Of a stretch of DNA of 64,000 bases, positions 1,830 through 35,984 are shown piece after piece. The translations under genes and the position numbers were made by a program. The DNA lies in NCBI GenBank assembly GCA_947652115.1, contig OX393561.1:35133031-35197030 (forward strand). The letters are read 5' to 3'. The DNA is from Blastomussa wellsi. Its lineage: Eukaryota; Cnidaria; Anthozoa; Scleractinia; Plerogyridae. Below the pieces are notes generated by a model. That model ran no database searches. It was not told where the DNA came from and saw only the letters and a list, made by a program, of their open reading frames with translations. Numbering within the stretch: position 1 is the first letter of the stretch; each line of letters begins with the position of its first letter.

Positions 1830-2340
1830 TAGACGTGAAAACTGCAAAGGGCCGCGAACGATAATGCTGCTAGTTTACGTGGGATCTGCAAGAGACCTAA
1901 TCAGCCAAAAATAAACTGTAACACAAACATAACTGCAAGGCTGATACTACGTGAAAAAATTGACTTTGCGAGACAACAACCCGACAGAAACCGATAAAGG
2001 CTGCAACCGTGGACAGCTGTTTCGTTCTTATTGGAACTCGTCAGCACGGTGCAGCCAGAAAGCCAGCTCAAATAAAATGCAACAAAACCCACGCTTTATC
2101 AAGTTCCGTACTTTGAACCCGTCCGCCCCCCGAATCACGCGCTGCCAAATCACGTGTTTCAGGGACAAAACAGGCAAAGTATCGAATTCTTGTCTCGCAA
2201 AGTCAAAATGTAGATGGCTAAACCATCTCAACATTGTAAAATAGACATGAAAACTGCAAAGGACCGCGAACGATAATGCTGCTAGTTTACGACCTAATTA
2301 GCAAAAAATAAACTGTAACACGCCTGACTTCGTGAAAAAT
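1830..2340. repeat. Direct repeat pair upstream of M20 copy 1
   Basis: A segment of roughly 110 bp near 1830-1950 recurs near 2242-2345. It contains GAAAACTGCAAAGG, CGCGAACGATAATGC and TGCTAGTTTACG, followed by AAAATAAACTGTAACAC. The second copy lies about 80 bp from the M20 start codon, so the duplication covers the likely promoter region. The block between the copies is not repeated. Whether it is a regulatory duplication or a transposon trace cannot be decided from sequence alone. Confidence 0.6.
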
Positions 2341-10270: not shown

Positions 10271-10273
10271 AAG
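10271..10273. repeat. Left AAG target-site duplication of the CACTA element
   Basis: AAG directly precedes the CACAGG terminus and is matched by AAG at 20680-20682 after CCTGTG. Confidence 0.85.
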
Positions 10274-10319
10274 CACAGGAAAAAATTTAAGATTCCAAAT
10301 TGGAATAACATTGGTAAAC

Positions 10320-11160
10320 ATGTGAAATGATAATCCAATGTTGGTATATTATTGGTTATTTTATGGGCTACCAATAATACACCAACCTTACAACAAGGAT
10401 GTAAATTTTGATATCCCAACATAGGCACTTTATTGGATAGTAATTGGAAAACCTAACAACACCCATACCAATAATGGGAGATTATTGGAATCCCCTAACA
10501 CATTTACCAATAAAATACCAATGGTATCCCAATATTAGACAACAATTGACACTTAAATATACCAATATAGGTATTTCATTGGACAATGGTTGGTTGATCT
10601 GTCAACATAATTACCAATATTGGTAAATTATTGGAATTCCGGAACACATTTTCCAATAAGATACCAATGGTATTCCAATTTTAGACAACACTTGATACTT
10701 ACATATATCAATATAGGTATTTCATTGGACAATGGTTGGTAGATCTGACAAGATAAATACCAATACTGGTAAATTATTGGAATTACTGAACACATGTACC
10801 AATAAGATACCAATGATAATCCAATTTTAGACAACATTTGATACTTACATATACCAATATAGGTATTTCATTGAGCAAGGATTGGTTGATCTGACAAGAT
10901 AAATACCAATACTGGTAAATTATTGGAATTCGTGACCATATTTACCGATAAAATACCAATGGTATTCCAATTTTAGACAGCATTGGACACTAAAACATAC
11001 CAATTTAGGTTTTTCATTGAAGAATACATGTAGTTGGGAGATCTTATAAGATAGATACCGATACTGGTAGATTATTGGAAATTCTGAACACATTTATTAA
11101 TAAAATACAAATAAAATTTATTAATGGTATATGTATGCCAATTAATTTCAATGTTACGGA
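10320..11160. repeat. Left subterminal array, about 146-bp units
   Basis: The phrase ATTATTGGAA recurs at 10481, 10627, 10773, 10919 and 11071, giving spacings of 146, 146, 146 and 152 bp. Each unit contains ATACCAATGGTAT, TACCAATATAGGTATTTCATT and ACCAATACTGGTAAATTATT-like blocks. All are variants of a CCAAT-N-ATTGG palindrome. CACTA elements typically carry transposase-binding subterminal repeats, so these are probable binding sites (inference). The last unit, nearest the transposase gene, is the most diverged. Confidence 0.85.
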
Positions 11161-11365
11161 CATTTTCATGGCTAGTTTAATACTGTATTGAGATAAATTG
11201 GAACTGGTAGATCTATATCGTAATATATTTGGCAAACATTGGAGCATGTACTTATTGTACCAACACTGGACAATTAATGAAATTGGAGTTTCTTTATACC
11301 GTACATGTTGTAGTCTGTTTGGTGTAAAATGATACAAAGCTGAATACTACATGTACACCCTTCAG

Positions 11366-14300
11366 TCATGAATCACGCCAAGTGGTAAACTGGATCACCC
11401 AGTCACCTGCAACAATGCCAAGAATACTGTCAAACACAATTTCTTGATTTCTAGTGCCCTCTGGCACCCACATATTGTCACCATCTCTTTTCTTGAAAAA
11501 CCGGCCCGTTACAGTGTGCCTTCTGATATTAAAAGCTACAACTCTGGCTCTCCAGGTGGTGTCTTCATCGTATCCTCGGACAAAAACCATGTCATTTACA
11601 CAAGGGTAATATGGAACAACAACAGTTCCTGGTGTCACTGGAAAAATGCGGCGCAAGTAATCTACCACCAAGTAGCTTGGGAGCCCAGCCACATCCTCGT
11701 CTTTGGCAAGAATAACTTTGCGACTGATGTTTTCGACACGGAAAATGCTTATCTGGTTACCTTCCTGAACTAGGCGCCCCCCATTGTCGGTGAAGCCCAG
11801 ACTTCGAAAAGACTTAGCATTCACAAAATACATACTATGACCAGCAACAGGAACTCGGAAAATTTTCTGTAGCTGTACAACAACTTCACCATCACGATGG
11901 CTGACAACAATTGCATTTTCATTGACTCTGTACAACAAACCATTAAATCCATGACTTGGCTTCCAGATACTTCGATAGCTTGTAGCACTATCCTGGATTT
12001 CATCATCAGCAACACTACAAAGGTTTGCAATTTCATGTTGTAGGTGATGGGGCAGTACATAAGGCTTTGGAGCTCCAACTAATACACCTATGGCATCACC
12101 TTGATTGCGAACAGCAGGACTTGCTTTATACAGCTTCTTTGCTTGATCAATGGACTTTGCCCAAAGCTGAAAGAGAAGATAAATAACATAATTAATGATA
12201 GTGAATTTAAACTTTCCCTAAAGCAGCATCTACATGTACAATGAAATCAACATATATGATATACTGACTACGCAAACAACTGTTTAATTCTATTAGTTTC
12301 ATGAACAACAAATTATCACACGTATGATAACATTGTTGTTAATGCTGATTGTTACCTACGCAAGAATAAGCACCTACCAACTGCTCATTTGCACAGTGTG
12401 GATCATATGGTTGAAACTCTTGCTCACTCCTCATCTTAATGAACTCACGTCTAGACTCGGCAGATGCAAAAGTGCACTCTATGTTTTTGCAGTTGCTGGA
12501 CTGTCTGACGTATCTTCTCACTGCTCTCTCCTTTGTCCAGCATGAATAGTTGTCAAGTCCGCTGAACCTTTTAATGTCATCCTTGAAATGGAGAAGGTTA
12601 TGCACAATAATGACACAGGCAGTCGGACCCCTCCTTTCTTCCAACAGAACAGCATATCGCAACGCCATTTCATGAAACGTTTGTGCATCTTCCTCACTCC
12701 ATCCATTTCTAGCATGATTCTGTACGAATTCTACCAATCGGGCAAGGCAAGACCACTCCTCCTTTTCCCTTGCTGGAAGAAGCCCTCGAAACACCACCTC
12801 CGATGCAGGAAATGCAAACTTTGAGAAGTCTTCGGCTATATTTTTGAGGAAATAGACACAATTCAGCAAGGCATACATGTCACAGGCATTTTATGCCCTT
12901 ACTAATAAATGAAAGGAAGTAAATTGAAAGCGGTATGGAATGAACATCCACAGTACACTTTATAACACTGACAAAAAATAAGTTATTTGAAATGTTCAGC
13001 ATGCAAACAATAAAATTTACCTTTCCAGCGTCCAATTGTTTTCGTCAATTTCTTTGGGTACCTAGATGACTTCAGCTCTGAAAGGCAATTCAGATTAAAA
13101 GGCTATCTTTATATGCATCCTGTTAACACAGATAATTTTGATAATCCCCTTAGTGTCCATAAACAGGGCTTCCCTGTATTAGCAAGTCAACTCAATCTTT
13201 TCACTTGTACTGGTACAGTAGTGCAACTGACTATTATCAAGAAAACAATTGTTACTGACAGTTGAAAATGTAACTAGACAGATACTGCACACAGTGTAAA
13301 CTGAGCTGCAATTGCCAATGCTCACTCTGTTACAAATTTAAAGAATAAAACAACAACAGTGAATTGAAAACTTGACAGAAACATACCACTTGGCCATGGT
13401 ATGTGGTCAAGTCGGTCATCTACTACGGACCAGTCAATACCATTTGTGTCATCATCTAACAAGTCCAGAAGAGCATTTTTCACCACGTTTAGAGAGATGG
13501 TATGCATTTCATCATATACAATGCTTTCATCATATAGGAAACCATACAGGGGGTAAAGCCTGTGTAACACAGATAGACCTGTATAACCAGTGTCTCTCGA
13601 CATCCTCTGCCTCACTGTCGACCTTTCCTCTTCGTCAATGTCCCGTATTTGATCAAGTTTGTCAATAATACTCTTCTTGTTTGCTGGGAATCTACCCTGT
13701 TCACGGAAACCTGTATAGTAGTAGTGAGAGCTCTCTCTAACGTAAATACCTTCATGTATAAAAGGAAGAATAGATGCACATTACATTAAATTCCTGAACC
13801 TAATGGTACCAGATCCAAGTTTACAGTTAGGTCACACTTCAAACAATACATGAAGATTGTGTTAGAAAAAAAGATTGTGTAGTGGTATGTGTCACTATGT
13901 TGGTAATTACCCTACATTAATTTTACTACTTTTTTTTTCACTGATTCTTGTTCGAGAGAGAAACTGTTTAAAGTGGTCTAATGTACTCTACAGGTGGTGT
14001 AATTTCTTTGTTTTTCATGTTTGGCATGCTTCGTTTGTTCATGTTTGGGGTACATGTAAATCATGTCAAGACTCGTCACATGATATTATCTAGTATGCAT
14101 TTGTTTTGAAGTAACACAAATAAAACACTTGCATTCAGTTACAACACTAATAGAACAAAGGACATTAAGGGCTGCAGTTGCTTCCAGTGTCTGCCGTTAA
14201 TACAGTTATCCACAGATTTATCATGCAATACTTATGACTGAATTTTATTCTCACTTGCAACACAACAGCGACGACAACCACACTTCCCCATTTTTACAAA

Positions 14301-16694
14301 TTTGCCAACTTCACATAGTCCATTGTGGTCACCAGACCAGCACAGAATTAGATGTCTTATAAGAGCTGGTCCTTTTGGCTTGCCACAAACTGAAGCTGCG
14401 CAGCTAACTTGGATTCCTGTTGATATAGCAGTAACATACATATTGCATCAGAGTGACTGACTACCTCTTGTGTAACTTACTGAACACTCTTTACTGCAAT
14501 GTATTCACAGTCAAATAATTCAGTGAGGGTGATATTACTTTCAGCTTCCAGTGAGTAAGCCCAGAAAGATCTAAAAGTTTACTAGAAAATATCATTATTC
14601 CTTCCAGAACTCTACTGTAACGGTTACCTACACAAATTCATTTCAATATATAAAGCTGCAAATTACCATCAATGAATCCATCTTCAATGTCCGTCATCAG
14701 TGGGTCGAGAAATGGATCCAAGGATATAGGACGCTTTTTTGGGAGAAGGTAAGAGGGTACAAACCCTACCACGTACACTTCATCTGTACTGCATCTATGT
14801 TCTTTGGACATGGTTGCTATAGTAATTTCAACAGCTCCTAGTTATAACCAGAAGCAAAAAGGCTTACTTTGTACCAATAATACACATATTTAACAGTGTT
14901 TAAAAATCAACAATATTGTTCTATGTCATAGTTAGACTGTGTAGAACTCACCTGACCCTCGAGACATGGATGAAAATGGCTGCCATCCATCCCAGTGAGC
15001 TAGCAAATTAAATAAAAAGTACAATATTCATAAATTTCTGATGTTTGCTCTGAGCCAGACAAACAACAAGTCTAAATGAATATGCCAGAAGACTATGTCC
15101 TTCCAAGAAAAATTCCCACCGTGACAATCTTTTTGATTCAGCTATCATTTTGTGTATTAAATAACCACTACCGTCTCGGTTACATGTACAAAGTATAACA
15201 CATAAATAAATTATTGTTATGACCAACCCAATTGCTTTCATGAAAATGTGTGAAATTCCTTGTGTCATAAGAGAAAAAAATCATGCCTTAGCCTATTAAG
15301 TACTGTAGGCGATTCCCCAGACTCTGGAAATTAAGAAAATCTTAAATATCAATAAATATATTCATTTGATGAATAATTATTATAAGCTTACCAACATTTT
15401 AACCCCAGAATCCTACAATTCTATTGAGTCACATCTTTCATGTCTGATTTTGAAAAGTAATATGCATACCATCATAAGCTAGGTTCCGTGGGTCACCTCT
15501 CGTTTTCTTTGGAATGTGATCAAAGACATTGAAGCATCCAGGGCATTCAACTTCACGTGTTTCACCATGGCCAGCACCTTTGCATGGAGAATTATTTAAG
15601 TGCTCAGCTGAAACAACAGTTTTGCAACCAGGTGCCGGGCATTTAGTTGGCAGTGTCCATTCTTTATCGGGATCCCAAAAGTAGGACAATTTTGCAAACT
15701 GTGTACCATCCCAAAATTCCTTTTTTAAATGCCATCCCCAGTCCTCTTGCCTTTCAGGAGGCAACCAGTGTTCCCTGTCTTGCCAATGTGCTGTCATCCT
15801 CTCACACATTTGTTCAGAGGCAAACCACCTTTTCACTTTGTCTTGCACACTCAGGTAATAATATGGAATTGTTCCTTGTTTTCCACAGTGGGGGCAAACA
15901 TCTGTTTTGGACTCCAATAGTGCATACAAACAAGGATGACTAGAATCCAGACAAATGTAGTATAACTTGGGTATCTTAAAACCAATGTCACCTAGCAGGG
16001 TTTGCACATCTTCCCATGATGACGGCCAGTGACCTTGAGCTGCTTCATTGTTCTCACAGTGCAAGTTGGCCCCCCATTTCAAAAGATCTTCAAATGTGCT
16101 GATTGAAAATCCAACAGTTCCCTTTATTTCCACCAATTTTAGTACAGCTTCCCTAATAAAATCCCTCATACCATTTGCTTCTTCTTCAGCTACATCGGAA
16201 AGCGTGTCCGACTCACTCTCTGATCCCTCGCCCGAAACAGACTCGCTGAAAACATCACCCGAATGAGAACTGTCAATGTCTGACACCTCTACCTCCTCCG
16301 TTTCATCATCGTCCCTTGCACCACCACCAGCCAGCAAACAGGAGGTCGACGAAAAATCAAATTCGGCGTAATAGTGCGAGACGCTAAAACAGTCATTGGA
16401 ATTGTTAGTTTCTGAAGAAGTTGCGATCACTTTGTTAGTAGAAGGTTGAAGCGGGTTGGGTGCAATGTCTACTTCTACATCATCCGCATTAACATCAGAA
16501 TACCTGGCTCGCTTTTGCATATGGCGCCATGCGACCATCGGGTAAACTGCACGATCTTCGCACTTCTCACAGGGGCAATGAACATGGCTTTGACCTTTTG
16601 ACGTAAAATAATTTGCCTCTGGGGTACTTGAACATTTACAAATACTGCGTTTTGCTGCCATACTAACATCGACATTTTGCCGAAATCTCGGCAT
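11366..16694 (-). CDS. CACTA TNP2-type transposase, 8 exons, 1089 aa
   Basis: Minus-strand exons: 15470-16694, 14952-14999, 14667-14837, 14255-14416, 13387-13734, 13021-13077, 12378-12835 and 11366-12166. They sum to 3270 nt in frame with GT-AG junctions and no internal stop. Order of features: a zinc-binding CPCEKCEDR...WRHMQK stretch, an acidic Ser/Glu segment, YICLDSSHPCLYALL and CPHCGK followed by RWFASEQMCERMTAHWQ, then WDGWQPFS and LDPFLDPLMTDIEDGFIDG. Then CWSGDHNG with a Cys cluster (CGCRRCC), HYYYTGFR, YDEMHTISLNVVKN, and FPASEVVFRGLLP with VHNLLHFKDD. These match the TNP2 family layout; the Asp residues in WDGWQ and CWSGDHNG are catalytic candidates. The C-terminal part (VNDMVFVRGYDEDTTWRARV) resembles an SH3/Tudor-like barrel (inference). 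The acceptor of exon 5 is the least certain. Confidence 0.85.
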
Positions 16695-17223
16695 GCAACT
16701 CCCACAAGATCATGATCCCGCAGACCGCCATGTTGAATTGTCGGCTCGTAGTTGTCAGCGGTACTTTTCGTCCCAGTACTTCTCGATGCGCGGAAAGTTG
16801 CGCAGTGGTTTCGCGCGTTTTTGTGACACCAGTTCAGCTGAAGGATTTTTCACAGTTTTCAGGGCGATAAATGGCGGCAGAAATTCTTTCTCCACTTCCT
16901 TCTTCTTGTGATGAATCAGAAGAAACCGTTCCTGAATCAGTGTGGAGGACGAAAGATGTAAAATGTGGGTTTTAACAGTAGTAAGAATGCGTATTGTTGG
17001 ATTTTAACGGTGGAAAGACACTCCTAATGTGCACGAGTTTCCAAATCAGTAAGCTTATTTGTGTACACGTCACGTATTCGGCTGTTTGCTCGGTTTACTG
17101 TTTTCTTTTACCATGTTAAACTTTAAATAACAGAGCACATTTACAAAGCTTAAGCTATTCCCACGCCGCGGTAAGTCTTTCGAATAGAATTATTGCAGTC
17201 ACTGCTGTTGTTTTAAAATTCTA
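16695..17223. promoter_or_regulatory. Divergent promoter region of the CACTA genes
   Basis: The transposase start codon (16694, minus) and the SAM-gene start (17224, plus) are 529 bp apart, so their transcription must start divergently from this region. A plus-strand ATG at 16871 opens a 35-codon frame, but its possible GTAAAA donor does not fit the phase of the next exon. A good CG|GTAAGT donor at 17171 suggests a non-coding first exon. No TATA box is assigned. Confidence 0.5.
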
Positions 17224-19747
17224 ATGCATTTGTCTAACAAATCATTAGGCTGGACAGATGGGGAAGTGAATAAGTGGCTGTGTTCCATCGGGTATGAGGA
17301 AGAAGCTGCCCTTTTCTCAAGTAAGCTGTATATTCATGAGCGACCATTGTGTTTGTAAACTACGGCCTAATCTTAAAAGCAGTAATGGGGCACTTGTATT
17401 TGATTCTACCCAGTATAAGCATGACGTACATACATAAATACATATTTCTTCTTTTTATTTTCTCCTTCTAAAGGGCATCCAATGTAAATGACTTAATTTT
17501 CATTATTTATATATCAGCTGCAAATTTATCAATAGGCAAGATGTTACTGATTGAATTTGAGGTTTCTAGACTGCTAGAAATGGAATTATGTTCTTCCATT
17601 TTCAGGGTTTTAAACAAGGGTTCATCCTTGGTAGCACAGCTATATACACCCTGTACATACCTCAGATATGGAAAGTAAATTCCTTGGCATGGTACTATCT
17701 TGTCATTTACTTGCATGCAGGTTCATACTAATATTTCTCTTTTCCAATTAATTAAATTTACAGATGAGAAAATCACTGGTGAAGCATTAGTGGCAATTGA
17801 AAAAGGTGACTTAAAAGAGTTGGGTGTTGAGCCTATGGGACGTCGTATTGCACTCATAGCAAAGATAAGTGAATTATTTAACACTCCAAAACAGGACAAG
17901 CATCCAGATGTGGTGAAAAAATCAGAGAACGTCACAGTAATGAAGAAAAAAATAACAGTAGAGGACAAGAAACTGTGGGATGCCAAATCTAAAACAGCAT
18001 ACCTGGAAAAGTAAGCATAATTTTAAGTACCTCAATGATTAGTGGTGATCTATTGATTTAAAGTAATCTGATAAAGTCTATACTTGTGTAAGAGTTCATA
18101 TTTGTTGCAACTTAAAACATTTTAATGTTCTGTTTATACTCAAATTCAAATTTAGCATGGCTTGGTTTCTAAATCAACAACTCTTCTTAATTGTAGGACG
18201 TCACTCATTGTTCGAGAGGCAGGAAAAGTATGGCCTGGGAATAAAAAAGTACACTATAAAAACAGCCAGACAGAAGCTTTAAAATTAGAAGAGCTGGTGT
18301 CAAGACTGGAACAAACATGCCAAATATCACAAATTGGCTTTGGACGAGGTATGTTTTGGTAGAGGTGTGGATAAAAACAAGGGGAAGGCCATGACCTACC
18401 AGTTGTCATCAGGGTTGTCAAAAGTAGCTACAGTAGCAGCATGTAAGAATCATCACCAATTTCATGTTTTTTTGGGTGGCTACTCTACTGGCCATTCTTC
18501 TTACATGCAGTCTTAAGTAAAAGATGGCAAAATCAGGTAGCTACTTTAACAGTATAGCCAGTGACAGGTAATTAAAAACTTTCTCAATTTGCGTGTTGAA
18601 GAATTCTTGTACTGATCATTTGGTTGATAGTGCAGTATGTCTAAAAAAGCTGAGTTCTGAGTACTTGCTGTGGACATGACTGTCAGTTAGGAAATGCCAA
18701 TAACTGAAATTTATTTTGTTTGTAGAGTGCATAAGGCAACACATTATACAATGGGCACATGAAAAAAACAGGCGCCTCAGTGATGGTTATGACTATGAGG
18801 TAAGCTGATAATAACAAGTGGACTTGAGCAGTACTTTTAGAGGATTTTTCTCATAACAATTTTCTGTTCAAGGACTGTTAACTTTTTAATCTTTCTCACA
18901 GTTCTACACTTTGACTGTAATGATGACCTCTGCACAGGTTATTGAAATGTGTGTCACTGTCAACAACAGGACTACAGTCAGCAGGAAGATAATATTTCAC
19001 CTACTTATGACATGAATACTAGGTTGAAACCTTTTATAAGTAGTATCAATATTTTTTAAACAGGCTGAACATACACCTGCCAAAAGAGCAAAGAAGACAA
19101 AAGATGTTGACAGTAGTAGTACCAACTCTGAAGAAGGTAAAAAGTAATTTTCAAGGTATATTTTCCTTATAGGTGACATGATTCTTTGAAATGGTAAGAT
19201 GTCCACAACTGAGTTAAGAATTAATGTTAGGAAATACTAATCAATTTTCTCAATAGGATGATACCAACACTGATTCTTATTACTTTTTATTGTTCTACAA
19301 CTAGATCTTGGTCCTTCCCAAGAATCAAGCATTAAGGAGAGTGCAGAACTGGAAGACATTACAACCCAAAGTTCTGTCATTGTGATGTTAAGTTATTTTG
19401 GTACTAGCTCAATGCGCAATATAGTTGTTACAAAACAATTGTATCCACTTGCAAAAGGGCTTAATGTTAAGTACAGATCCTTAGGCAAATATGAAATGTG
19501 TGTTCCTTTGGCTAAAGCTCTAATTTTGCAAGGTTTTGTTGAGGTAAAAGCAGAACCAGGGCAACAGATCAACTACCGTTGCTTAAAAAGGAGTAACATT
19601 GTTGTTGTTAAAAAAATGAAAATTGTTAAACATCAGCCAAAGCATGACAGCTTTTCAAAAGAAGTGGGGACCAAAGAGGAGGAGGAGGATGGAGATGAAG
19701 GAGACACAGACTCTGTAGGCACTGGTTCATCTTCTGTTTGTGATTAA
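17224..19747 (+). CDS. SAM-domain accessory protein of the CACTA element, 361 aa
   Basis: Exons 17224-17320, 17764-18010, 18197-18348, 18726-18799, 19064-19136 and 19305-19747 give 1086 nt in frame. Residues about 9-70 form a SAM (sterile alpha motif) domain: GWTDGEVNKWLCSIGYEEEA, then FSNEKITGEALVAIEKGDLK and ELGVEPMGRRIALIAKI. SAM domains mediate protein oligomerisation and sometimes nucleic-acid binding. Next come a Lys-rich linker, a helical segment (TEALKLEELVSRLEQ), a basic stretch (PAKRAKKTK) suited to nuclear import, a compact C-terminal segment of about 75 residues with winged-helix-like composition, and an acidic EEEEDGDEGDTD tail. AATAAA lies at 19772. The start is chosen because ATG 17224 is in frame with the SAM domain; an upstream coding exon is not excluded. 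It is unrelated to the transposase and may be a TnpA-like cofactor (inference). Confidence 0.8.
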
Positions 19748-20089
19748 GTGTTTGCTTCAGAGTGCAAGTGTAATAAAGAAAACCAGATGTCATGTTGTGT
19801 TGCAGTTATTAAAAGTTGCTTTCAGAATCATGTAACTTCTTTATCAGTAAGAAATTTTATTAGAAATATTGTATGTAGTAAACATAATGCTTGATGCCAT
19901 ACATTTATAATGGCATGCCTATGGCCTGGTCCGGTTGATGGCACTATCCACCCAAACAACCAGGCGCTGATGTTTAGATTTTTTGTACATGTTAAACAGA
20001 ACCTGAGTATACGTCGGCACATATAATATTAAACCACATTTTGAACGGTGAATGTTTGTAGTGTGTTATTATTGGAAACTTCTCCTTTA

Positions 20090-20660
20090 GTCTAAGGTAC
20101 TATTCCAGTGTTGCAAAAGGTTCCCAGCATCATCTTTGCATTTTAAAACAGCATCCCATTGTTTGAGGCCTGTTTTCCCAACATTAGTATTTGAAAATAA
20201 TATCGCCATATTGGAAGAATAAATTCCAACATTGGAATAATACATATAGTATACCAATATTAGGGGACTGTTTCCCAACATTGGGATATTAAATATTGAC
20301 TATGTACCAATATTGGAGGACTGCTTTCCAACATTGGGATAACATATATAGACTACCAATATTGGTGGACTGTATCCAACATTGGGATATTAAATATAAT
20401 ATACCAATATTGGAGGACTGTTTTCCAACATTGGGATATTAAATATAGTATACCAATATTGGAGGACTGTTTTTCCAACATTGGGATTATTAATATAGTA
20501 TACCAACATTGGAGGATTGTTTCCCAACCTTGGGATAATAAATTTAGACTACCAACATTGGTATATATAACATTTTACCAATGTTGGTATTTCATTTTCA
20601 TTATCCAATGATGTCCCAACCATAGACCAACAATAGTCCAATCTTCTCCCAATGTTGGAA
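20090..20660. repeat. Right subterminal array, about 60-bp units
   Basis: About six units of roughly 58-62 bp, each pairing TACCAATATTGGAGGACTGT with CCAACATTGGGATATTAAAT, lie between about 20160 and 20560. Looser CCAATGTTGG palindromes continue to the terminus. The unit differs in length and sequence from the left array, although both use the CCAAT/ATTGG palindrome, so the two ends are distinguishable. Confidence 0.85.
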
Positions 20661-21278
20661 TCTTATTTTTTTTCCTGTGAAGGGTACTATTGAGTTGAAA
20701 ATTTGCGAGAAGATATATTTTTAGTTAGCCTTACACCTAGTGGCAACGAAAATTTAGCAGGCCTAGAGAATTTTTATTTCAGAATTTTAAGACGTCACAT
20801 GAAAACCAAGAATAGAATGAATGAGGGAGAAACACTTACAGTGCATATCGTTTTATGTAACAACGTTTGGTTTGATAGTACGCGAGTATCAAGGAACAAA
20901 AGAAAACTATTTTCTGCTATTTACAACAAAAATTTTAATAATATACGCCGCCATATTCTAATAATAAACTCCTCCATATTGTTCATGTGCGCGTGCAAAT
21001 CACACGTATAAGTGTGCGCAATGTAATATTGAGGAATCACCCAATGAGAGAGCATGTAGTATCCCTGTTCTTTTAGCAGTCATATCAATCAGTGGCCATT
21101 TCCCGATGATGGGGGATAAACCAAACAAACCACAACCTTAGCTGTCAACATCTTAACCTCCCATGCAGTTGTTTTCGGGGCATCGCGTTCACTTTGTGGG
21201 GAAAATAAAACGCGATCCACTGAAACCTTTGAACCTAGATGCGCCCGCGCTCATATCCGCTGCTAGGTTGCGTCAAAC

Positions 21279-24200
21279 ATGGCGAGCGATCAGGCAGAGG
21301 TCCTGAAGCAGAAAGCAAAAGAAGCGATCGATATCTATTCTGCTGATTTATATGGCCTAAACAAAAGCATATGGGAAAACCCAGAGCTATGTTTTAAGGA
21401 GACATACGCTCATGATCAACTGACGGAGTTTTTGGCGGAGCAAGGTTTCGATGTGACCCCCCATTACACTTTGGATACTGCTTTTCGTGCTGAAAGCGGC
21501 GAAGATGGAGGTTTAACAATTGGTCTAATTAGTGAATATGATGCTTTACCAGAAGTGGGACACGCTTGTGGACACAATTTGATCGCTGAATCAGGTGTAG
21601 CGGCGGCATTGGGTGAGCATAATTATTCATTATCAGCTTCTCTTTAAAATCATAAAGATGATTTTTTTTGCGGGGGGTGGGGGGGGGGGGGGCGGAGGGG
21701 GGGGGGGTAATAAATTGAACATAAACATAATTTGACTTGACCCTATTTAAAGTCATGCAGGCACACCTTTGTTGTTGTTTACATGCGAGTTTAGTATTAT
21801 ATTTTACCCTTAGCGTATCGAAACGGAAAAGATCATTGAGAGACTTGCTAAACACTCCCAGTAACATAACTTACAGCAATGTAATACGATTTCGCTTCAT
21901 CATACAATTTCCATAATTTCGATGGCACCAAAAATGACAGAGGTTGACTAGGGCCCTTATAGGATAAAGAAAATGGAATTTGATACCCTATTTAAGGTGG
22001 ATCGTACCAGTTTTTCGTACGTGGGAAGTCTGGTGACGAGCTCTCGCCTCACGCGAGATTTCAAAACAAATATGGCGGCGCGTGGGTTAAATACATGCAA
22101 GGTTGCTTTTGTCCTGTTTATCAGAGATTGGATCAACAAGAAAGTTGTTCTTTGAGCGCCGGTTCTTGGACAATTCGATATGCGTCAAAAAGTTTTTTTT
22201 CCGAACTCAATGCCCGAGTTACAAAGTTAAAATTCCCGTTTGTGCTGCGATCGATCCTGTCGGCGATCGCAAAGATCTTAAAACTGAAGCGGTTAATTCC
22301 TACTCCCGATTCTCTCGTTTTGTGTACTTTGCCGGACTAGTAGGTTTTTACACCTACTACTCCTCGTCCACCGCTTATGCAGAAGAAAGTGACGAAGAAA
22401 AAGAAAATAATGAAGTTCAGTCCCGACCTCGTCACAAAGGTTGTTTTACTGCCAAAAGGCGAGTTTCAAAACTAACAAATCTCACAAGGGCAAGACAAGC
22501 AAAAACAAGCACTTCGAAAAAAACAACCGCGAAGAATGAGAACAAATATTCCGTGAAGTTCTTCTGCAATGAAGATCGACATCCAACCATGTGTCGAGTT
22601 GATTTCACTTATCGTTTCTGACAGCTTCGTGTTCAACAAAATATGGCAAATCAAACGAAAGTTTGAAAGGAAATCGTTAAAAGGGAGGCCAAACGTTCAA
22701 TAAAACAGTTCACGACACAACTACTAACTAATTTCACGGCAGCGAAGTCGAGATTCTCGAAGATGACCCTCAAAGTAGTGTCGAAGACCAAAGAAAACAA
22801 AACGACGGTAAGTGCGTGGTCGCGCGCGTATGAACGCGAATAGGTCAGCGGTAGTCAAAACTGAGCATGAGTAAATGCCAGTCATATAAAGTCAAGATTT
22901 TGAAGTGCGTGACGACGTGCGTGGATATTATTGAACTCGCGAAGGCTTTTCCGAGAGAACAAGCCCGGTGACCCTATTTTTTTATTGTTTCAATGTCTTC
23001 CAATTACTGAGAGGAAACGTCAGACGTAATTTTAAAAAATTCTACGGAAGGAATTTTTCTCTACTCACAAATTGCCTTTTTTCACGTTTATAAAAAAATC
23101 TGCTGCGTAGAATTTTGTTAAAATTATTATACAGTTTCCTTTCCAAATGCCAAAAGTTATAACGTGAAAAAATTGGGGGTCACCAGGTTGGTTTTCAAGT
23201 TTTATGCACCAGACGCTGAAAAGTAGGTCCGAATAATCATCAAGTACCGTTACCATGGTGACAACTGATGACGAAATACTTTTATTTTTATACGTTATTT
23301 TTGGTCAAGAACAAAATATGGAATTGAATCATACGAGCATTTTGTTATGGCCTTGGACTGATATTTTGCTCTTTTCCTCCAAAGTTTAGACAGTCAAAAA
23401 CCTGAAAACTGGTACCATCCACCTTAAGGACGTTCATGCTAATTGTTTGTGCGTATCGTTACTGCGCACGGAATTCGACATGCCACGTCATCCATCGAGC
23501 ACGCGCACTGAGGAAAAACAAAGGGCCAGAAGCCGTTTCTTAGCTTTGCTGGTAGTTTACTCTCTTAAATGGTTGGTGACCCCTACTTTTTATTCCATGA
23601 ACTTATTTTATTTACAATTCTCGGCAGATTGTCAAAAAATGAACAAAAATCAATGTGGGAAGTTTGAAAATTTAGTAGTTTTGCCCACAGGATATCGAAT
23701 CCTACAATCTTGCGGCTGTTAGGCGAGTGGAAATGTGGTCGCTAAATGCAATTTTTTTCTTTAAGGAACCACACCAATTGAATAAATTCACTTTATGGGT
23801 CCATTTAAACAACATTTGACGGAAATACGTTCATTTCAAAGATTTATTTGCAATATTTTTGTGCTTACAGACACTGTACCTGTATCTGCTAGATTTACGT
23901 TGTTTTTCTGGGCATGTTACCTCCAAAACGAAGTCGGTGACCCCCAATTAATTTTTTCATTTCTGACATCAGTTACTCATTATCTTACAGTGGTGAGAGT
24001 TTCAGAAAAAATCAATGGTAGAAATTTTTTGCGCGAACGTCCTTAAGGCCCAAACTCGATAAATGGCACCCTATTCAACAAAAATATGAAAACTCAGAAA
24101 GGCATGATTCAAACAGGTCAATATTTTGTACCTGCAAGGATAATACTCTTAACGGGTTGTTCAGTTTATAGCACATTTCAGAAACGTGCAAACTATGGTG

Positions 24201-27200
24201 ATGTCGACGATTACGTTCTTCATTGCCATCACTCATCAAGTGACCTATTAGGTAACAGAAGTTTGCTTCGACAGGGTCAAAATTATTTTATCGTAGAGTT
24301 TCAAGGCCAAAAATAAGAATTACTGGCATCCTCTGACAAATATCATCCTTGTTATTATCAGTACATAGGTCGACCGGCGTCTTTGCAAGCCAAATACCTA
24401 TAAACTCAAAACCCAGACCATAAACAACGCATACCTTCATTATAAGTTATTCAATAATTGTTGAGTGGTTGCCGATTTATTGGAAATTTCTTTCAAAAGT
24501 CAAAAACTACAAAAGCAAAGTGCAAAAAACTGTAAAACAAGCAGCCATGAGTAGACAAACTTTGCCTTGCATCTTCTGTGCATGATCGTTTGCAGTTTGT
24601 GTTGTTTCGCCAAAAGCTGTCCTTGGCTTCTGATTGAATAATCCACATGGAAGAATTTTGGGCTCCTTGCTGTAAACGTACCTAAACCAGCTGTCTCAGA
24701 TGCTATGCATTAAAACATTATTGAGATCTGACATGATTTTATAAAAGCAAGTGTTACACTGAGAACGGAAGGCGGTGATGATTGACAGCCGCTCAAATGC
24801 ACATGTAAACTGACTAACTGACGAGTATGCGCAGTTGTCCCTGGACCCTGCTATGACAAGTTGCTCCATGTATAGACCTGTGTGCTGCTTCCAGAACACA
24901 TTCTTGTGACAAGACACAGGCAAAAGGTGCCTGCCTGGTGTGGCACAATGCTTTTTTGTGATAATATTGACACTGTGACAGAATTTTGTCACTGCAACCA
25001 GTCGCAATGAGTGAAAACTCACCAAGCCACACCTGGCGAATTGTCGCAGCAATTTGTCTCCACAATATGTGTCACAGTGACGTTCACCTACATGTTGAGT
25101 GTGTCACCTAGTCTGCTTATTTGCACCACCCACCAGACCTGCAACTTCCCCGCCCCCCAACTCCTTCTCCACCCACCCCTGTGTAATCACATAATAATAA
25201 TAACCTTTAATAATAATAACCTTTATTTAAGTCTCAATCGTTGTAGCCGAACACGAGTGCTCTACTAATTGGGGAGACTGTAAATCAAATAAACTCTAAA
25301 TCAAATCAAATGTTGGTTTTTTGAGGAGAGGGGAAAACCGGAGTACCCGGAGAAAAACCTCTCGGAGCAGAGTAGAGAACCAACAAACTCAACCCACATA
25401 TGACGCCGAGTCCGGGAATCGAACCCGGGACACATTGGTGGAAGGCGAGCGCTCTCACCACTGCGCCAACCCTGCTCCCCACATAAGGCTTCAAGAACAA
25501 TAGCATTTTATAGTAGACCTTTTTTGTGATAATGTATGCCATTTTGAAAATAAGGCAAATACTATGCTGCAAGATACAGAGGATGTTATGAAAATTTCAG
25601 GGATTTTGATGCCAATTACTACTGCACTGCTTTTTGTTTCTGAATATCGTGAACCTAAGTGATTAGGTTAACAATTTTACTGATGAAATTTGACGCCAGC
25701 AGAGGAAACCCTCAGAACCCTTGCACCTTCACACCACAAAATGTTTTTCTACTTGGCTTCTTGAAAATCAGTTAAAGTCCTGTGACAAAACAGTTTCTCG
25801 TCTAAAAATAAGTGATGGTGAGTGACAAAACCGTTTCTCGTCTACAAAATAAATGATGGTAACAGTTGCATAAAAAACTGATAGCAACATTTACAGTACA
25901 GCCGTTGGTTTGGGTGATACCAGTCTTGAGAAGTATGCAACAGTGTGACACTGCTACCCCTCTTGGAAGGCTCCCTTATTGTTTGGCCTGTTAGGACTGG
26001 GGATTAGGACTAAATGATAGTTACTGGAGGTACTGCAAAAGCCATGAAATTGAAAGTTCAGTAAAAAATACTTAAAATATAAAATTTGGGAAAATATACT
26101 CATCTGATAAGGATTGCCATGGAGACATCAACTTTAAAGACCCATGATGACATTTCGCATGTCAACTGCAGTTGCCATCTTTTATGTGAATCGAAAAGTG
26201 CCTATCACACGATGGCACTTTGATCCTGCATTCATCAAAACAATAACAAATGTGTGCAATGCATTTAATTAAATTTATTAAATTTATTCCTTCCCCCTTC
26301 AGAAACAAATGTACTCCATCTCAGTAAAGTCATTACTGTATTTCTTACATCTTGGGAGTTGAATTCATTACCCACTTTTGACTCACTCCTCGTAAGGACA
26401 TGTACCTAAAATAAAATTAATACGCCATTTACAGGTGCCCTAATAGAGACAGGGGGTGACAACTCTAACAAGGGCTGTTTCGGGAGAAAAACAAAATTTT
26501 TCCGGGAATCTCAAGATTTTGTCGGGAATCAGGAGACTTGGAAAATTTTCTGGGAAACACGAACTAATGAAGTTAAAATTTTGGGAATTTTGAGATATTT
26601 GGGGGAATTTCTCCCAAATATTCGGGACAATATTCCAGATTTTCAGGAGGACTTTTATTTACACACAGTACTGCTCAAACAGCATTTGCTAGAGCTGTCA
26701 CCCCGTAATAGAGGATTAATGGTATAATAGTGAATGGGACGATGGTGCCATAATTTTAATCTTTCAGATTATTGTCATGTCTTGCAGGACTTAAGATTGC
26801 TTTGGAGGCAGTCAATAAGAAACCAAAGGTGAAAATAGTTCTTCTTGGAACTCCTGCTGAGGAAGGAGGAGGTGGCAAGATTTTGATGATCAACAATGGA
26901 TGCTTCAAAGATATCGACTTCTGTATGATGGTTCACCCTTGCCCTATAGATGCTCTCAAGCCAGCCACACTGGCCATTCAGCCTGTTACAGTTACTTACA
27001 AAGGTCATGCAGCCCATGCCGCAGCATTCCCTTGGGAAGGAATCAATGCATTGGATGCAGCAGTCATGGCTTATAACAACATAAGTGTATTACGGCAACA
27101 GATGAAGCCCACATGGCGTGTCCATGGCATTATCACAGAGGGTGGTGTTAAACCTAATATCATTCCAGACCGTGCTCAGCTCAATTATTACATCAGAGCT

Positions 27201-35684: not shown

Positions 35685-35984
35685 TGGGAGGCGCCGTGGC
35701 CTAATGGTTAGTGCGCTGGACTCTGGATCGGACGGTCCGGGTTCGAGTCCTGGCCGGGGCACTGCGTTGTGTTCTTGGGCAAGACACTTTACTCTCACAG
35801 TGCCTCTCTTCACCCAGGTGTACAAATGGGTACCGGCGAATTTACTGCTGGGGGGTACCCTGCGATGGACTAGCATCCCATCCAGGGGGGAGTAGAAATA
35901 CTCTCTGTCGCTTCATGCTTCGGAAACCGGGGATAAGCTCCGGCCTGATGGGCCACTAGGCCCGACAGCAGACTTACCTTACCT
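35685..35984 (+). mobile_element. Full-length tRNA-derived SINE, 300 bp
   Basis: A perfect 14-bp duplication, TACATGTACGCATG, lies at 35671-35684 and 35985-35998. The head is tRNA-like: GTGGCCTAATGGTTAGTGCG (A box) and GGTCCGGGTTCGAGTCCTGG (B box). The body contains AAATGGGTACCGGCG and GCGATGGACTAGCATCCCAT; the tail ends CTTACCTTACCT. The long perfect duplication points to a recent insertion. It lies downstream of M20 copy 3. Confidence 0.9.

Follow-up and report, generated by a model that had tools for sequence, protein, structure and literature searches.

A SAM-domain gene recurrently paired with the transposase in a divergent CACTA lineage of the coral Blastomussa wellsi

Results

The element and its two genes

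We analyzed a 64,000-nucleotide stretch of the genome of the scleractinian coral Blastomussa wellsi (GenBank assembly GCA_947652115.1, contig OX393561.1, positions 35,133,031 to 35,197,030; hereafter, the window), in which positions 10274-20679 are occupied by a 10,406-bp CACTA element that we denote F1. Both ends of F1 begin with CACAGG, its inverted terminal repeats comprise 25 nt per arm and are 92% complementary, and an AAG target-site duplication flanks it on both outer sides; the 10.4-kb element, the CACAGG ends and the 3-bp duplication that a first-pass annotation had read from this sequence are all present where it placed them. Inside the element, a transposase gene on the minus strand and a gene for a SAM-domain protein (hereafter, the partner) on the plus strand lie head-to-head (Table 1). 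The two divergent genes move together as a single unit, and the same arrangement is found again in families of this genome that have diverged from each other. The interval between their start codons shows an observed/expected CpG ratio of 1.34, compared to 0.42 across the whole of F1; this elevation fits a promoter that is likely to be shared by both genes.

The partner gene consists of seven coding exons, with all introns of the GT-AG type, and encodes a 384-aa protein. The first-pass annotation had described an intact gene of six exons on the strand opposite to the transposase; its integrity and orientation hold, but the best gene model has seven exons. In the protein, a SAM_2 domain spans residues 30-93 (41.9 bits, against a Pfam cut-off of 20.5), and the C-terminal domain carries a net charge of +7. 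The closest structural neighbours of the modelled SAM fold are chains of PHC3, Scm/Sfmbt, Shank3 and SARM1, and the list of neighbours also includes SAMD1 and L3MBTL3. A winged-helix reading of the C-terminal domain, based on an impression of its secondary structure, was dropped, with no convincing match in either Foldseek or VIA-align. Relatives of the partner that carry an organism name come from Oculina patagonica (58%), Porites lobata, Acropora digitifera and Paramuricea clavata, all anthozoans, with one of the homologue searches scoring the best 8000 candidates by shared words. Viral contigs and phage records yielded no related loci.

Among these relatives, the middle domain of P0025 (Acropora digitifera) is 94% identical to that of P0024 (Porites lobata) over 98 residues and 96% identical to P0004. 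The Porites protein P0003 and P0004 share 44% identity, far below the 94% between Acropora and Porites. Recent horizontal transfer or contamination are possible sources of the near-identity of the Acropora and Porites domains.

The transposase gene comprises eight exons with GT-AG introns and encodes 1083 aa without an internal stop. CACTA transposases possess conserved acidic DDE catalytic residues, for which the candidates in F1 are D401, inside an HWDGWQPF motif, D500, D604 and E784; in an 18-row alignment, D500 and D604 are conserved in 18/18 rows and E784 in 17/18, with a gap in the remaining row. The match to the Pfam TNP2 family (PF02992, Transposase_21) is weak, at 17.9 bits (E 0.0019) below the cut-off of 28.6, and accordingly, we consider the F1 transposase to represent a divergent lineage. 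In a Pfam scan of seven relatives, P0010 alone passes the TNP2 cut-off (28.8 bits), P0009, P0011, P0012 and P0020 fall under it, and P0007 and the transposase of family F5, described below, show no TNP2 match at E 0.01. When the 18-row lineage alignment was compared by hhalign to five canonical PF02992 loci of the same genome, the probability was 98.0 (E 1.7e-13, 144 columns). This profile-profile match, together with the passing score of P0010, places the transposase in TNP2. The complete eight-exon TNP2-type transposase of the first-pass annotation is therefore retained as an open eight-exon frame that misses the Pfam cut-off and whose homology emerges from profile comparison. The 18 transposase relatives found are 36-63% identical, and two of them come from Nematostella vectensis.

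The gene pair in other copies and families

A genome-wide search with the SAM protein covered 367.8 Mb in 124 contigs. Besides F1 in the window, this search, which addresses the mapping of copies proposed by the first-pass annotation, found another complete copy at C8:19566683-19577105 with an AGT duplication of its own, and a broken third copy on C1. The two main blocks of the C8 copy match the window at 99.7% and 99.9% identity, and a 460-bp repeat-rich 3' piece aligns at 92.8%. The SAM coding sequences of the two complete copies differ at 0 of 1155 nt; in the transposase gene of the C8 copy, exon 4 has a 2-nt gap and exon 7 a 30-nt gap relative to the window. The third copy is in two pieces about 105 kb apart (C1:18163382-18166392 and C1:18271266-18278813), which may reflect a large insertion or a rearrangement.

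Beyond F1, the gene pair or its partner member is found in diverged families that share the CACAGG start (F2, F3, F5 and the left end of F6). The partners of F2, F3, F5 and F6 are 28-44% identical, and all retain the SAM, middle and C-terminal domains. F2, at C16:20394620-20405185, has identical 16-nt ends, an AAC duplication and a partner divergent to the transposase; by segment, identity is 39-60% for the transposase and 34-64% for the partner. A second F2 copy is flanked by an ATT duplication, and a single end was found for a third. In F3 (C8:8357606-8363228, TGT duplication), the transposase is mostly deleted and the SAM partner is retained. F5 (C4:19405581-19415385, AGT duplication) combines a divergent partner that has all three domains with a transposase encoded in a 1053-aa intronless frame (39% identity over 1079 aligned positions); two other F5 insertions are flanked by TCA and TAT. 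Among the F5 insertions, a 3.5-kb derivative at C1:16731985-16735539 (TAT duplication) still contains partner exons. F6, read from its left end inwards, starts with CACAGG at C1:22480629 and carries a divergent transposase and partner, and F4 denotes a partner locus near C1:22.62 Mb with no readable transposase next to it.

Perfect 3-bp duplications were present at 8/9 end pairs checked, on five contigs and with seven distinct sequences (AAG in the window, AGT at C8, AAC and ATT in F2, TGT in F3, and AGT, TCA and TAT in F5); two further copies with one end only are outside this count. The ninth pair, C1:18885461-18894094, was considered as a full-length element lacking the partner and rejected as not intact, because it contains only pieces of a transposase between unlike flanks, and it looks chimeric. 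All four end-to-end elements with a transposase frame (the window, the C8 copy, F2 on C16 and F5 on C4) carry the partner, so that full-length copies devoid of the SAM gene, which the first-pass annotation had considered, did not emerge. Two side observations concern gene structure and arrangement. The transposase is intronless in F5 and split into eight exons in F1, and the partner gene is apparently exon-split in both. At C9:8803000-8812999, a partner gene resembling that of F6 is followed downstream by a C-terminal exon of the F3 type, which suggests nested or recombined elements.

The SAM_2 domain scores above the Pfam cut-off in F1, F2, F3, F5 and F6, as well as in P0001, P0003 and P0004; of two further partner loci, one reaches 19.1 bits, just under the cut-off, and the other has no SAM match. 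A ten-row partner alignment, built from proteins and composite exon peptides, covers the SAM, middle and C-terminal domains and contains 11 invariant positions. The partner codons of F2, F3 and F4 change most at the third position and least at the second (in the between-family comparison of F2, 0.49, 0.38 and 0.65 for positions 1, 2 and 3), and the transposase codons of F2, F3, F5 and F6 likewise show a third-position excess. The F6 partner (0.59, 0.35 and 0.60 over 63 codons) is low at the second position, with the first close to the third, and the F5 partner (71 codons) shows no third-position excess. Copies of the same family are so similar that their few differences provide no clear signal of selection.

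Association of the partner with the transposase lineage

To quantify the association, partner matches from three queries (56, 43 and 38 matches) were merged into 48 clusters, 52 matches of the transposase lineage into 31 clusters, and 41 canonical PF02992 matches into 35 clusters, one of which overlaps a cluster of the SAM-partnered lineage. Among the 31 transposase clusters, which derive from a search that scored 42 of 262 candidates, 20 have a partner at a distance of 10 kb or less, and the two genes are divergent in 20/20. In 1000 control shifts, in each of which all partners were displaced together by a distance between 30 kb and 1 Mb, the mean was 0.79 and the maximum 4, and 0/35 canonical clusters have a partner within the same distance. 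The SAM gene is therefore a true and recurring part of this CACTA lineage, which bears on the question, posed by the first-pass annotation, of whether such genes sit beside TNP2 transposases within CACAGG ends. A two-query version of the partner count gave 19/31, and direct reading upstream of the C15 transposase locus revealed partner SAM exons, which raises the count to 21/31. The possibility that the SAM gene is a single-copy host gene, also raised by that annotation, is ruled out by the 48 clusters of related exons in the genome.

Several caveats apply to these counts. Two of the three partner queries derive from elements that were found beside transposases, and the source elements are counted. 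There is no listed transposase within 10 kb of 28/48 partner clusters, although at least one of these, C1:22482948, has a transposase on direct reading. Conversely, a partner was not detected for 10/31 transposase clusters, of which three are unreadable in part or for the most part, three showed no partner on reading and four were outside the reading. The three read clusters hold broken or partial transposase matches, and two of them were examined 4.5 kb upstream only. In all, five transposase loci were checked 4.5 kb upstream; three are mostly or partly unreadable, and the two readable ones lack a partner over this distance, the transposase match on C12 being partial and that on C5 containing two stops.

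A candidate binding site in the element ends

The palindrome CCAANNTTGG matches 18 times in the window, and 17 of these matches lie inside the subterminal regions of F1, 2 in the left and 15 in the right; in shuffles of the whole window, the mean count was 1.84 and the maximum 5. The left arm of F1 contains mostly half-sites. The ends of the five scanned elements contain 17 (F1 in the window), 18 (F1 at C8), 13 (F2), 14 (F3) and 3 (F5) copies of CCAANNTTGG, and their interiors contain 0. Because CCAANNTTGG is palindromic, its sequence suggests a site for a dimeric or multimeric binder.

Other features of the window

Immediately to the right of F1, positions 21267-21647 (+) form an open coding stretch with a translation that looks, by eye, like an exon of an M20-type peptidase. 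A match to the Type I hammerhead ribozyme at 2006-2050 (-) scores 39.4 bits against a cut-off of 34 and could be derived from a retroelement. Rfam reports a tRNA at 25404-25475 (-; 34.3 bits), where ARAGORN makes no call, and ARAGORN reports a tRNA-Gln at 35691-35762 (+), where Rfam makes none; because each is reported by one tool and not by the other, both may be SINE-like or decayed.

Table 1. Features of the F1 element in the window (positions in the window)
Feature	Position	Strand	Remarks
Target-site duplication, left	10271..10273		AAG
Left terminal inverted repeat	10274..10298	+	CACAGG...; 0-mismatch match also present in the C8 copy
Left subterminal repeat region	10297..11110		~146-bp units with abundant CCAAT/ATTGG half-sites; two complete CCAANNTTGG palindromes
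Transposase exon 8	11366..12166	-	terminal stop codon
Transposase exon 7	12378..12835	-	E784
Transposase exon 6	13021..13077	-	
Transposase exon 5	13387..13749	-	D604/H607, conserved in 18/18 rows
Transposase exon 4	14255..14416	-	D500
Transposase exon 3	14667..14837	-	
Transposase exon 2	14952..14999	-	HWDGWQPF motif, D401
Transposase exon 1	15470..16661	-	ATG at 16661
Interval separating transposase and SAM start codons	16662..16870		209 bp
SAM gene exon 1	16871..16964	+	ATG at 16871
SAM gene exon 2	17249..17320	+	SAM domain, first half
SAM gene exon 3	17764..18010	+	SAM domain, second half
SAM gene exon 4	18197..18348	+	middle domain, WPGN...IGFGR
SAM gene exon 5	18726..18799	+	middle domain, HIIQWAHEKNRR
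SAM gene exon 6	19064..19136	+	linker, basic PAKRAKK stretch
SAM gene exon 7	19305..19747	+	C-terminal helical domain, acidic tail, stop
Right subterminal array	20190..20658		15 CCAANNTTGG palindromes
Right terminal inverted repeat	20655..20679	-	
Target-site duplication, right	20680..20682		AAG

Discussion

The reading that we favor, with some reserve, is that F1 is a complete, recently mobile, two-protein cut-and-paste element of a divergent animal CACTA (EnSpm) lineage, in which the partner serves as a TNPA-like end-binding or assembly factor. The same pair recurs in several distantly related families and, accordingly, the second gene seems to belong to the regular equipment of these elements. 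We are nearly certain that the partner is a true component of the element and under selection; the arguments that it is a required end-binding or assembly factor are evenly poised. End binding, polymerization and the requirement for the partner are our inferences. Two indirect lines of evidence point to binding, polymerization or bridging at the ends, namely, the confinement of the palindrome to the element ends and the proximity of the SAM fold to PHC3, Scm/Sfmbt, Shank3 and SARM1. In polymerizing SAM domains, mid-loop and end-helix surfaces make a head-to-tail polymer, a property of which likeness in fold to PHC3, Scm/Sfmbt and Shank3 is no proof.

Under this model, the subterminal arrays, with their CCAANNTTGG palindromes and half-sites, would be recognized by the middle and/or the basic C-terminal domain of the partner, self-association of the SAM domains would hold together many bound copies of the partner along with both ends of the element, and the transposase would then work on the CACAGG termini. 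Production of the two proteins would be coordinated through the promoter region that their genes share. A broader and decidedly more tentative extension is that an entire lineage of anthozoan CACTA elements encodes a Polycomb-like polymerizing protein that coats the palindrome arrays of both ends as a scaffold of the transposition complex, and that derivatives without a transposase that retain this protein may persist as regulators of related elements.

The structural neighbours of the SAM fold, which include PHC3, Scm/Sfmbt, SAMD1 and L3MBTL3, also fit a different role, whereby the main task of the partner is anti-silencing or transcription: it binds the arrays, engages or poisons SAM-containing chromatin proteins of the host, of the Polycomb/SAMD1/L3MBTL3 type, through its SAM domain and keeps the element expressed, outside the cut-and-paste complex. 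According to the literature, TNPA can reactivate a promoter that is methylated and repress one that is not (PMC1636069), and the F3 derivative retains the partner with the transposase mostly deleted. However, several kilobases separate the palindromes, at the extremities of the element, from the promoter interval in its center, and the SAM fold by itself names no binding partner, so that we consider this role rather unlikely. The 209-bp interval that the divergent genes have in common and the persistence of transposase-poor derivatives with partner exons (F3 at C8:8357606-8363228 and F5 at C1:16731985-16735539) would also be compatible with a self-limiting repressor or dosage regulator, akin to the suppressor role that has been ascribed to TNPA in plants (PMC2613891). 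Retention by five diverged families is not obviously expected of a pure repressor, though, and the deletion derivatives possibly have just been mobilized in trans, which makes this explanation improbable in our view. A captured host passenger gene without a role in transposition might be suggested by the fact that SAM domains are common among host proteins. Nevertheless, the gene retains its three domains and its divergent placement in several families that are deeply diverged and, apart from matches of small parts to other SAM proteins, the relatives with an organism name come from four anthozoans only (among the best 8000 candidates in one search); we regard such a passenger as very improbable. 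That the pair is a coincidence of assembly or annotation is scarcely credible given the perfect 3-bp duplications, of seven different sequences on five contigs, at 8/9 end pairs.

Close counterparts of the two-protein model for F1 are known from plants. Binding of TNPA to subterminal repeats has been described in maize, where neither TNPA nor TNPD is dispensable (PMC2613891). The plant elements En/Spm, Tam1 and Tgmt* resemble F1 in the CAC-type inverted ends, the 3-bp duplication, the TNP2-type transposase, the asymmetric arrays of subterminal repeats and the second element-encoded protein (PMC2613891). The TNPA of Spm is produced by alternative splicing of one transcription unit (PMC1636069), unlike the partner of F1, which is encoded by a separate, divergent SAM-domain gene. 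SmTRC1 of Schistosoma mansoni, which has related CACTA elements in animals and fungi, is, like F1, an animal CACTA element for which a second product has been proposed to do the work of TNPA; in contrast to F1, its second products arise by alternative splicing, and no relatives of them were reported to be detectable, with no SAM domain mentioned in the accessible part of that report (PMC1636069). The partner is proposed as a counterpart of TNPA in function.

Beyond CACTA, PIF/Harbinger elements, which belong to a different superfamily from F1, encode a Myb-like ORF1 protein. As in our model of F1, their mobilization needs two separate element-encoded proteins, ORF1 and TPase (PMC2836001). The lineages of Kolobok, which have a transposase of yet another superfamily, are each marked by an accessory protein of their own (KolX, nucleases, a helicase), as the F1 lineage is marked by the SAM partner, and no SAM protein is mentioned in the accessible part of the source (PMC9587614). 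Accessory proteins as such are already known for CACTA, Harbinger (PMC2836001) and Kolobok (PMC9587614). Among the papers listed by a literature search that did not extend to Repbase Reports, where an entry may exist, none describes a SAM-domain protein as an accessory of CACTA elements.

To our knowledge, how the ends of CACTA elements are found and paired outside plants is a largely open question. A recurrent SAM partner combined with a candidate binding site makes this question directly testable in an animal system. The SAM domain, best known from Polycomb and signalling scaffolds, is now linked to DNA transposition. Finally, orphan SAM genes in coral genomes, such as Oculina LOC144661207 (P0001), may be transposon genes, which is a warning for annotation.

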